Positions 2,006 to 7,869 of a stretch of DNA of 8,521 nucleotides are shown here, one piece after another. This stretch comes from Saccharofermentans sp. (GTDB taxonomy: Bacteria > Bacillota_A > Clostridia > Saccharofermentanales > Saccharofermentanaceae): the NCBI GenBank assembly GCA_024692105.1, contig JAILMZ010000080.1, positions 1 to 8,521 on the forward strand. Reading direction: 5' to 3'. The notes beneath the pieces are model-generated. The model was not told the DNA's origin and ran no database searches. It saw only the letters and a program-made list of their open reading frames with translations. A program made the position numbers and the translations under genes. The stretch's first letter is position 1, and each line of letters begins with the position of its first letter.

Positions 2006-2040
2006 TTTGTCGGTTTTTGTCGGTTTTTGTCGGGTTTTTC
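2006..2040 (+). repeat. Phased 10-bp TTTTTGTCGG repeats (possible curved DNA)
   Basis: A TTTGTCGG core recurs with about 10-base spacing, giving T-runs at 2006-2008, 2014-2018, 2024-2028 and 2035-2039, all roughly one helical turn apart. This lies just upstream of a putative -10 element at 2053-2061. T-tracts in helical phase are known to bend DNA and can stimulate promoters; that role here is inferred. Confidence 0.6.
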
Positions 2041-2067: not shown

Positions 2068-2874
2068 ATGGACCTGATAATCAAACACATCCCGCCGGAG
2101 TATTTATCTCTGAAGATCAATTACTGCAGACAGCAGCTGGCAGAACTGCCGGAAGTGAACCTGCAAGTTTACACTTTGCACGGAGTTCAAACGAAAGTAG
2201 TCATCGTCGGCAATCACAGGTACAGGGTAGATTCAAATAACGGAAGAGAATACTTGGGTTATTATAAAAAGCGCAAATACTATGAGCGTCAGCTTCAGGT
2301 CTTTGAATCTGTCTGGGACGGCAGTTACAAAGGTGAACCTGATCCCGAGTGCATGCCGATGAAAGTTCGCAGGAAGTTGTATATCGATACCGAAAGCCCG
2401 GTTGTGCTCGATAAGAAGTATTTCGACAGCCTGAAGAATGATGCGGATACCAAATATGGCAAGCCGAGGGATTACTTTTTCAACGGGATATTCTACCGTT
2501 CATACGCAGAGCAAGAGATAGCGAAGTATTACACCGCGATGGGCATACCGTTTAAGTATGAGCCTGAAGTGTATCTCAAAGGACTGACATATCCCATATA
2601 TCCTGATTTTGTTCCGTATATAGAGGAATTGGATTGCTGCAAATTCCATGAGCACTTCGGAATCAAACAGTCTGCTTCATATCTCAGGACTACAGGCATC
2701 AAATATGCGAACTACACCAATGCCGGACTGGTTCCCGGGATCGATATCCTGTTCACTCATGATACGGCTGACATTCCGTTTGATATACGGTCGTTTGAAT
2801 CCCAATTGAACACCGCGATCTATTCGACTGTACTGGTTCCGCCGCCGGACGATGAAGACGATGAAGACGAATGA
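2068..2874 (+). CDS. Predicted PD-(D/E)XK-like (restriction-endonuclease fold) protein
   Basis: The 268-residue product is not a named gene. Residues 140-230 look like a family of clostridial proteins with a restriction-endonuclease-like fold. The pattern is RSYAEQEIAKYYTAMGIPFKYE (candidate acid Glu148 or Glu150), IYPDF with candidate metal-binding Asp180, then FHEHFG with Glu195, followed by a GIDILFTHD strand near 224-232. The usual Lys of the ExK motif is missing (Glu-His-Phe), as in relatives with WEHFG or WEHLG (from memory). The N-terminal half, residues 1-130, shows no domain I recognise and is rich in Lys, Arg and Tyr. The C-terminus is an acidic tail, DDEDDEDE, coded by 9-base repeats. 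There is no signal peptide or membrane segment. The start at 2068 lacks a well-placed ribosome-binding site and may be leaderless. More A/T third positions than in neighbouring genes suggest foreign origin. Whether it is an active nuclease is uncertain. Confidence 0.55.
   Translation: MDLIIKHIPPEYLSLKINYCRQQLAELPEVNLQVYTLHGVQTKVVIVGNHRYRVDSNNGREYLGYYKKRKYYERQLQVFESVWDGSYKGEPDPECMPMKVRRKLYIDTESPVVLDKKYFDSLKNDADTKYGKPRDYFFNGIFYRSYAEQEIAKYYTAMGIPFKYEPEVYLKGLTYPIYPDFVPYIEELDCCKFHEHFGIKQSASYLRTTGIKYANYTNAGLVPGIDILFTHDTADIPFDIRSFESQLNTAIYSTVLVPPPDDEDDEDE
2848..2874 (+). repeat. 9-bp tandem repeat coding the acidic C-terminal tail
   Basis: GACGATGAA occurs at 2848-2856 and 2857-2865, followed by the diverged GACGAATGA at 2866-2874 that ends in the stop codon. 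It codes Asp-Asp-Glu repeats, and its last bases overlap the first palindromic repeat. Confidence 0.75.
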
Positions 2875-2980
2875 GTATTTTGTGAGTAATTCGGGCCGTT
2901 TACTACACTTTTTACTCATTATTGGTTGAAAATGAGTTTTTAGTGAGTAATTGGGGCGTTTTACTACACTTTTTACTCAT
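2871..2980. repeat. Two direct copies of a 49-bp imperfect palindrome
   Basis: Copies lie at 2871-2919 and 2932-2980, 61 bases apart start to start, and agree at 44 of 49 positions by eye. Each is an imperfect palindrome. In copy 1 the outer arms ATGAGTA/TACTCAT enclose TTTT/TTTT, then GTG/CAC, a bulged A, AGTAA/TTACT, and a GC-rich loop (CGGGCCG in copy 1, GGGGCG in copy 2). They fill the space between the nuclease-like gene and the convergent dehydrogenase gene; copy 1 contains the former's TGA stop. A bidirectional terminator, a protein-binding site, or a dispersed REP-like element are all possible. No typical U-tract follows the stem. Confidence 0.85.
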
Positions 2981-6309: not shown

Positions 6310-6663
6310 ATGTCAAGAGTAAAAAGAGGAATCCGCGTAAGAGCGCGTCATCATAAGATCATCAAGCAGGCAAAGGGTTACTGGGGCCACAAGAGCAAGC
6401 TCTTCAAGGTTGCTAACCAGCAGGTATTAAAGTCCGGTAACTACGCTTACAGAGACAGAAGAAACAAGAAGAGAGACTTCAGAAGACTCTGGATCATCAG
6501 AATCAACGCAGCTTGCCGTCTTAACGACATGAGCTACTCCAGATTCATGAACGGCCTCAAGAAGGCCGGCATCGAGCTCGACCGCAAGGTTCTCGCTGAC
6601 ATCGCTGTTACGGATGCAGCTGGCTTCACATCACTCGTTGAGAAGGCTAAGGCAGCTCTGTAA
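6310..6663 (+). CDS. rplT: 50S ribosomal protein L20
   Basis: L20 binds 23S rRNA early in 50S assembly and, in Firmicutes, is the repressor of its own operon through the infC leader. The 117-residue product has typical segments: [56 protein letters not shown] and the globular end [26 protein letters not shown] (6297-6302) lies seven bases before the ATG. It is the last gene of the operon and is followed by a strong terminator. A conserved L20 next to a leader with the expected switch layout supports feedback control. Confidence 0.97.
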
Positions 6664-6687
6664 TTCATTTAAGCAATTTGCTTACAC

Positions 6688-6716
6688 ACCCCCGAAGTTA
6701 AGCTTCGGGGGTTTTT
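6688..6716 (+). terminator. Intrinsic terminator after rplT
   Basis: A perfect ten-base stem, ACCCCCGAAG (6688-6697) with CTTCGGGGGT (6703-6712), has a five-base loop TTAAG and ends in a five-T run (6712-6716). It closes the infC-rpmI-rplT operon 24 bases after the rplT stop. Confidence 0.95.
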
Positions 6717-6735
6717 GTTTGGTTGAGTACGCGAT

Positions 6736-7101
6736 GTTCGCCAGTAAACTTCGCTCTTTAGCGAACATGTGAGCGAACAATACACGTTTAAGTAATCACA
6801 ACTCCAGGAGTTCGCCAGAAAAGTTCGCTGTTTGGCGAACATGCGAGCGAACAATACACGCTTATGTAATTACAACCCCAGGAGTTCGCCAGTAAAGTTC
6901 GCAGTTTGGCGAACATGTGAGCGAACAATACACGCTTATGTAATTACAACCCCAGGAGTTCGCCAGTGAAGTTCGCTGTTTAGCGAACTCACGAGCGAAC
7001 TATCTACGCTTTAGTAACCCCAAACAAGGAAGTTCGCCTATAAACTTCGCCAATTAGCGAACCCCCAAGCGAACTTTTGTGGCATGTGTTATCATCTACC
7101 C
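6736..7101. repeat. Array of five 74-bp units with double-dyad TTCGC/GCGAA cores
   Basis: Units begin with GTTCGCC at 6736, 6810, 6884, 6958 and 7032: a strict 74-base period. Copies 2 and 3 differ at only three positions; copies 1, 4 and 5 are more diverged, mainly after unit position 43. In every copy TTCGC is at unit positions 2-6 and 15-19 and GCGAA at 26-30 and 38-42, so all 20 cores are intact. They form a nested dyad (outer 2-6 with 38-42, inner 15-19 with 26-30), capable of a hairpin or of binding dimeric proteins. No reading frame is credible here. Copy 5 is recognisable through about 7080 and then aligns loosely across the promoter and start codon of the next gene. It fills nearly all of the gap between the rplT terminator and that gene. 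Confidence 0.92.
7087..7101 (+). promoter_or_regulatory. Putative extended -10 promoter giving a leaderless mRNA
   Basis: TGT-TATCAT (7087-7095) is an extended -10 with five of six hexamer matches, preceded by TG to give the TRTGn form seen in Gram-positive promoters. The ATG at 7102 comes exactly six bases after the hexamer, the expected transcription start. No -35 box and no Shine-Dalgarno site are visible; the upstream space is occupied by the last TTCGC/GCGAA dyad. Confidence 0.5.
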
Positions 7102-7869
7102 ATGGTCATCACCAGCAAGGACAATCCTAAGATCAAAGCACTCACTGCTCTGCACAAGCGCGAGAACGCGCGCCGCGAGGGCGTTGTGTTCATTGAGGGC
7201 GAGAGGCTCTGCCGCGACGCGATCGAGTCGGGAGCGGCGATACGCGAGGTCGTGGTTACTGAGGAGAACGAGGACTGGGCAAAGGACTACGCAAGGGGTG
7301 CGGATGTAACTGTTGTCAGCGAGAGGTGTTTCGAGAAGATAGCGTCGACGGTGCATCCGCAGGGAATTGCCTGCGTCGTGGGCCAGCCGGACATGTCGGG
7401 CACGATACCTTTCAGGGGCGACGGCAAGGACATCTACTGCTACCTTGAGGATGTGCAGGACCCGGGCAACCTGGGGACGATCATAAGGACTGCCGACGCG
7501 TTCGATTTCACCGCGGTCATCATGAGCCCCGGCACATGCGACCCCTTCAACGAGAAGACGATCCGCGCCTCGATGGGGTCGGTCTGGCATCTGCCGCTGG
7601 TGACCAAGACCCCGGAGGATGCTTTCGCGTTCTGCTCGAAACGCTCCGTCTCAACACTTGCGATGCACCTCAAAGGCGACGAACTCTCCAAGGCCGACAT
7701 CACTCTGCCGGTCATGTATCTCATAGGCAACGAGGGCAGGGGCCTCACGGACGAGACCTCCGCAAGGTGCACCAAACTCGTCAGGATCCCGATGCCCGGC
7801 AAGGCCGAATCCCTCAACGCTGCGGCGGCTTCGTCCATCATGGGATACGTGCTGCAGACCCTGCGTTGA
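7102..7869 (+). CDS. SpoU/TrmH-family RNA 2'-O-methyltransferase
   Basis: The enzyme methylates a ribose 2'-OH in RNA using S-adenosylmethionine through a SPOUT trefoil knot; the target (a 23S rRNA or tRNA site) cannot be fixed from sequence. The 255-residue product opens MVITSKDNPKIKALTAL, the usual start of YsgA/RlmB-like proteins, followed by an L7Ae-like substrate-binding domain (VVFIEGERLCRDAI, 28-41). The SpoU motifs are all present: motif 1 DPGNLGTIIRTADAF (120-134; Asn123, Arg129), motif 2 IGNEGRGL (208-215; Glu211), motif 3 IPMPGKAESLNAAAASSI (229-246; Ser237, Asn239). An in-frame ATG at 7084 would add six unconserved residues and also lacks a ribosome-binding site. The position downstream of rplT is common in Firmicutes. 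Any control by the upstream repeat array is inference. Confidence 0.9.
   Translation: MVITSKDNPKIKALTALHKRENARREGVVFIEGERLCRDAIESGAAIREVVVTEENEDWAKDYARGADVTVVSERCFEKIASTVHPQGIACVVGQPDMSGTIPFRGDGKDIYCYLEDVQDPGNLGTIIRTADAFDFTAVIMSPGTCDPFNEKTIRASMGSVWHLPLVTKTPEDAFAFCSKRSVSTLAMHLKGDELSKADITLPVMYLIGNEGRGLTDETSARCTKLVRIPMPGKAESLNAAAASSIMGYVLQTLR

Follow-up and report, generated by a model that had tools for sequence, protein, structure and literature searches.

Short palindromic repeats that are dispersed through intergenic regions, together with an enzyme gene that carries its own flanking repeats, characterize the REP/RAYT systems in the portions of two reports that were compared here (PMC2817692, PMC3116915). 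A passage of another report describes CoiA as a predicted PD-(D/E)XK-superfamily competence protein (PMC1189080). This study investigated a stretch of 8,521 nucleotides from Saccharofermentans sp. (contig JAILMZ010000080.1, the whole of which is hereafter called the window), in which a tandem array of five units built on the word GTTCGC occupies positions 6736 to 7074. The results suggest that the GTTCGC array probably belongs, as a non-autonomous copy, to a system of repeats and nucleases that would work in the manner of REP/RAYT but with an unrelated enzyme and an unrelated site. The same window carries a gene for a predicted PD-(D/E)XK-type protein and, directly behind this gene, a second palindromic array with a different word. 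A literature search of open-licence PMC papers revealed nothing describing this repeat-plus-nuclease system.

The five units start at 6736, 6810, 6884, 6958, and 7032, and the exact 74-base period described in an earlier note on this DNA was borne out. Each unit, to which no strand is assigned, comprises GTTCGCY twice followed by RGCGAAC twice; the fifth ends early, after its dyad, and its final core hexamer ends at 7074. Within a unit, the hexamers start at positions 0, 13, 25, and 37, which gives spacings of 13, 12, and 12 (13, 11, and 12 when counted from the pentamers). The full hexamer was present in 18 of the 20 words of the window, and CTTCGC occurred once in unit 1 and once in unit 5. 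All 20 TTCGC/GCGAA cores (unit positions 2, 15, 26, and 38), which the earlier note had called invariant, were intact in each of the five units. None of the 100 core positions was changed, compared with 43 of the 244 positions outside the cores (Fisher p 1.4e-7) and with 22 of the 115 spacer positions within the 43-bp dyad (p 3.9e-7). The drift was evident in the four inter-unit linkers of approximately 31 bp (6779-6809, 6853-6883, 6927-6957, and 7001-7031). The five-unit array is thus real and exceeds chance, and the proposed constraint on the cores against drifting linkers was upheld, with the words and geometry also kept in a second species. By contrast, the idea that the cores lie along one DNA face is not strictly valid because the steps of 12 to 13 bp are longer than the 10.5-bp helical turn. 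The earlier account also left out the second array and its linked gene (2006-2980).

To place the array among its relatives, we scanned 115 genomes of the family of genome G001 for GTTCGC units with up to three mismatches, using a backward control. Genome G084 was the sole genome that carried such units, and the control yielded none. A looser scan for three cores gave 18 matches at four places in G084 (control, 4), no matches in G001 (control, 3), and three matches in G002 against seven in the control, the last being not above chance. The search of relatives for the dyad that the earlier note had proposed therefore found the family at four other intergenic places in G084. With the gene names assigned by eye, one lies in the rsmG-gyrA gap, one follows a tRNA, one precedes a response regulator, and one follows mgtE. 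The nearest relatives by neighbouring protein are metagenome-assembled genomes labelled Ruminococcaceae, Clostridiales, and Saccharofermentans, several of them from rumen. The genus Saccharofermentans falls in Saccharofermentanaceae under GTDB and in Oscillospiraceae under NCBI.

Individual sites differ between relatives in whether they carry the family. The gap between rplT and trmH has no array in G002 or G084, whereas the rsmG-gyrA gap has an array in G084 but measures only 7 bp in G001 and 22 bp in G002. The earlier treatment of the array is therefore incomplete: the array is one copy of a dispersed family and not a single cis element of the adjoining gene. In G001, the rplT-trmH gap coincides with the ends of two contigs. 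These ends (L001:1-110 and the end of C1) carry other inverted repeats, with GAGTAATT words and CTGCYAAC words, and another insertion may therefore lie in the gap there. A single degenerate GTTCGC-type hairpin was seen in G002 (L086:1499-1530) upstream of a nifH-like gene, in a genome for which the scan was not above its control. A match to part of the array linker, ACGCTTATGTAA at 1989-2000, was dropped because it scored 12 against a shuffle mean of 11.5; a linker pattern was absent from G001, G002, and G084.

We further examined whether the geometry extends beyond this word by using a free-spacing scan for any exact six-base word that occurs twice and is followed by its reverse complement twice. 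Of the 66 step values obtained in G084, 58 equalled 12, with three sets in one genome shuffle, and 45 of 50 values did so after the GTTCGC loci were excluded; these step sets are not independent, most deriving from the word TCCATAA and the others from GTACAT and ACTCTC. Among 80 loci fetched for another reason, a step of 12 was again the commonest (14 of 48 values), followed by 28 and 22. A further count of 29 of 52 is biased because its loci include G011 stretches picked for GTCGGA pairs. Other words at the 12-bp pitch were AGTCGGA and TTCAGG in G011, GTAAAC in L006, and TTGCCA in L016. Arrays of other relatives with a partly 12-bp pitch were seen for ACATGT (L029:6127-6225), TTGCCA (L016:2800-2935 and 7435-7540), and GTAAAC (L006:3200-3305). 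AGTCGGA arrays are numerous in G011. Among the matches listed, exact GTCGGA-N6-GTCGGA occurred 14 times in G011, once each in G005 and G001, and not in G002; with one mismatch allowed, the pattern did not stand out in G011, where it gave 56 matches versus 60 for the backward control. As a reference, 32 of 250 random intergenic gaps also matched two or more other places, some of these being array families or promoter copies and others being further repeats. Judged from these sequence comparisons, the GTTCGC array is one of a class of repeats of this bacterial family that have their geometry in common but not their word.

The gene for the PD-(D/E)XK-type protein lies at 2068..2874 on the + strand and encodes 268 amino acids. 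The second array, with the words TGAGTA and TACTCA, begins over its stop codon and spans 2871..2980 (no strand assigned; limits read from the sequence). The window protein and two homologous-locus proteins (L163 and L145) had no match in Pfam at E up to 1, and the window protein had none in NCBIfam; a PDB sequence search at E up to 1 and a Foldseek search at E 0.001 also returned nothing. The predicted fold is closest to a homing endonuclease, Bax1, and TnsA, and the model contains the core fold and active-site acidic residues of the PD-(D/E)XK superfamily. The interval between rplS and an SDR gene measures 1042 bp in the window, where it holds the promoter, gene, and array, versus 19 bp in G001, and the gene thus shows a homing-endonuclease-like presence or absence at a fixed site between relatives. 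A different homolog lies between rplS and ylqF in G084.

Seven homologs were found in G084, six of which have a 3′ array that starts at the stop codon, and the words of five of these six recur elsewhere in that genome. TCCATAA was found at 5 further places, CCAACTTT at 3, GCCGCAAAT at 4, TGTTAGAG at 6 and once on the 5′ side of its gene, and TTATTCAAC at 3 clear places and once on the 5′ side; TCACGAATC, the word of the sixth gene, had no further places. Arrays flank the gene on both sides in two of the G084 cases, and each word has approximately 1 to 8 arrays. Quadruple words within 150 nt after the stop codon were present at 20 of 52 homologs versus 38 of 1303 G084 open reading frames (p 6e-16), the latter including five of the homologs themselves; this test excluded loci whose flank was a duplicate or shorter than 150 nt and loci lacking an open frame of 200 codons. 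A stricter scan recovered complete arrays at 3 of 30 nuclease loci. Several families therefore start right behind a gene of this type and have further copies in the same genome. A nuclease-type gene of G011 (C1:124959-125732; L163, L213) is followed on its 3′ side by a TAACCA array and preceded on its 5′ side by the widely dispersed AGTCGGA array, which shows that the words flanking one gene can differ. In the sequence covered, which includes the window but not the rest of its genome, none of the GTTCGC arrays adjoined a nuclease gene, and the arrangement of a gene flanked by its own repeats was thus not seen for this word. Viral contigs contained no stretches with the four-core pattern and gave only five short partial matches (29 residues) to the nuclease alignment; a phage origin is therefore unsupported.

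The array-bearing genes also share an upstream element. A competence-type promoter element with TTTTGTCGG-like repeats precedes the nuclease-type gene of the window at 2006..2039 (+ strand) and differs from the G084 element by 5 substitutions. G084 has 13 copies of this 34-bp element at up to 6 substitutions, six of which precede the six array-bearing genes; further copies lie upstream of comM, which is succeeded by dprA (PF01078, PF02481), of a set of genes that includes one for a T2SSF protein, and of a pilin-like gene, and two are without a clear gene in reach. When up to 8 substitutions were allowed, 14 copies were found in G084, none in one shuffle, and only that at 2006-2039 in the window. 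At least two TTTGTCG-like words within 150 nt before the start codon were present at 32 of the 52 homologs versus 7 of 1303 G084 open reading frames, five of these 7 being homologs. A shorter form of the element gave 43 matches in four other genomes, many of them overlapping counts of one element, and none in the backward control. Eighteen of the 30 returned loci comprised five homologs, two comM, two recA, one comEA-like, one comEC-like, and four pilin-like genes, two sets resembling the Tad-like set of G084, and one unclear case; Pfam was applied to seven of the 18, and two of these seven, the pilin-like and Tad-like proteins, had no match. The genes of the PD-(D/E)XK type thus share the element with natural-competence genes, and the element-bearing genes can be read as a competence regulon. 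Two G084 copies (C17:3808 and C19:17099) lie before HicA/HicB-type genes, with two HicB-type antitoxin genes, and toxin-antitoxin pairs may accordingly belong to the competence-type regulon. Downstream of another copy (L252:11864-12880, - strand), a protein with a CDI_toxin_EC869-like, restriction-endonuclease-like domain is encoded.

The repeat-plus-nuclease reading joins the observed geometry, dispersal, linkage, presence or absence, and shared promoter. Each protein would bind its own word, probably as a multimer on a two-fold site, and a multimer of this type would read four half-sites at a pitch of approximately 12 bp. The protein would cut or nick DNA at or near its own sites; cutting in competence would enable RecA to transfer copies of arrays to new intergenic sites, with another locus or DNA that the cell has taken up as the template, and the gene itself may sometimes be copied along with the arrays. 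The GTTCGC array would be a passive copy of such a recognition and spreading site, multiplied in tandem. We infer the pairing of GTTCGC with such a protein from its geometry alone, and the cognate gene may lie elsewhere in the genome of the window or may have been lost. We tentatively extend this account to a general proposal, possible but held with less assurance, that competence in this family carries selfish repeat-plus-nuclease elements: each nuclease would be made at DNA uptake, would recognise its own four-half-site word, and would cut at or near matching sites; arrays and genes would then be copied into new intergenic sites with the help of RecA and the incoming DNA. The assembled protein would fix the pitch, and divergence of the paralogs would alter the word.

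The array could instead be a multi-site operator, at which a host regulator bound to GTTCGCY half-sites controls the methyltransferase gene or the rplT operon. The conserved half-sites agree with this, as does the position of the last GCGAAC approximately 30 bp before the start codon at 7102 of the SpoU-type rRNA methyltransferase gene downstream (7102..7869, + strand). Nevertheless, the same gene has no array in G002 and G084, the G084 copies lie at unrelated genes, and no promoter-like site was found at 6600-7150. The gene orientation also opposes an operator: convergent genes flanked 18 of 34 related arrays versus 71 of 414 gaps, divergent genes flanked 2 of 34 arrays versus 109 of 414 gaps, and the convergent excess persisted without the arrays adjoining homologs (p 2e-4). 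The 35 arrays for this count were compiled by hand from the stronger scan rows. The weaker rows, which were not included, comprise TTATTCAAC at C21, C17, C6, and C2:31.7k, relatives of ACTCTC at C4 and C9, and single arrays at C8 and C9:56.6k. Three of the arrays compiled overlap by at least half with frames from a crude open-reading-frame finder. This bias suits repeats that are tolerated away from promoters. On balance, an operator is unlikely.

The convergent bias would also suit terminators. The array might be transcribed into an RNA hairpin that serves, for example, in termination or RNA protection. Inverted words are expected to give hairpins, and units 4 and 5 folded well (z -5.1 and -5.0); units 2 and 3 adopted other pairings. 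The window already has an intrinsic-terminator-like hairpin 3′ of rplT and upstream of the array (6688..6712, + strand), with just one weak terminator-like site inside the array, and Rfam gave no match at gathering thresholds across the window. We then aligned 16 units from two species, placing the degenerate units by hand. The words were perfect in 51 of 64 cases; among 14 changed core pairs, 11 were broken, 2 were wobble pairs, and 1 was compensated. A pyrimidine (Y) occupied the seventh position in 31 of the 32 left words and a purine (R) did so in all 32 right words, yet the seventh pair formed in 21 of 32 cases versus 22.25 expected if the two sides were independent. Moreover, the two left words of each array family are copies of one another, which a hairpin does not require and which points to repeated half-sites for a protein. 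The base changes thus fit DNA half-sites better than an RNA stem. Of the two possibilities raised in the earlier note, protein binding to DNA is therefore the better supported, and a hairpin appears about as improbable as an operator.

That a Y1 transposase mobilises the arrays, as in REP/RAYT proper, is very improbable. The dispersed intergenic palindromes and the enzyme gene flanked by its own repeats would suit it, and a Y1 gene is present in one of four genomes, G084; no Y1 match was found in G001, G002, or G011, though G011 has many AGTCGGA arrays, and no GTTCGC word occurred within 7 kb of the G084 Y1 gene. That RAYT-like gene (C5:70566-71345, - strand; L389) has flanking GGGGACATGC-type inverted words and adjoins a long membrane-protein gene. 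Plain recent tandem duplication without function would suit the exact 74-bp period and the lack of an array at this site in other relatives, but it is the least credible explanation given the core changes (0/100 versus 43/244) and given that a second species has these words in this geometry.

If the repeat-plus-nuclease reading is true, word and protein could be read as pairs, and the rule of fixed pitch, changing word, and linked protein would offer many natural protein and site pairs for decoding recognition. It would also represent a second, unrelated route by which bacteria come to have families of short palindromes between their genes together with a matching enzyme, and in this route the repeats are tied to natural transformation. 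From the shared promoter, a competence regulon is to be expected in rumen Clostridia, which are largely uncultured.

Compared with known systems, the predicted fold of the protein resembles those of homing endonucleases of the PD-(D/E)XK/EDxHD kind (I-Bth0305I and I-Ssp6803I) and of TnsA. Unlike these enzymes, the protein is linked to dispersed palindromic arrays with its own word, and no intron, intein, or Tn7 partner was seen among the open reading frames near the window gene. Similar to CoiA, as characterized in the passage cited above (PMC1189080), it combines a predicted PD-(D/E)XK identity with a link to competence; it differs in being multicopy and repeat-linked and in having no match to PF06054 (three proteins, E up to 1; a separate CoiA gene was not searched for). 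The lack of any Pfam match for the three proteins indicates that they are neither Y1_Tnp nor members of the CoiA family PF06054.

The closest likeness is to REP, BIME, and REPIN repeats with their RAYT (Y1) enzymes, which, in the portions of the reports compared, are likewise short, dispersed intergenic palindromes in alternating orientations that form genome-specific families (PMC2817692, PMC3116915). An enzyme gene flanked by its own dispersed repeats is shared as well, for five of the six G084 genes. The systems differ in that the protein here is of the PD-(D/E)XK type and not a Y1 (HUH) tyrosine transposase, that four half-sites stand at a 12-bp pitch, and that the promoter is of the competence type. 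Each word has a handful of copies, versus more than 100 per genome given for REP in the part of the source compared (PMC2817692), and the words of the 16 aligned units, inspected by eye, carry no GTAG (or CGTC) end tag. The general idea of pairing a repeat with its own enzyme is familiar from REP/RAYT, and if the manner of working is weighed over descent, the present system would count as a variant of that kind. Judged by the libraries and searches used, the enzyme, the site, and the regulation would be new.
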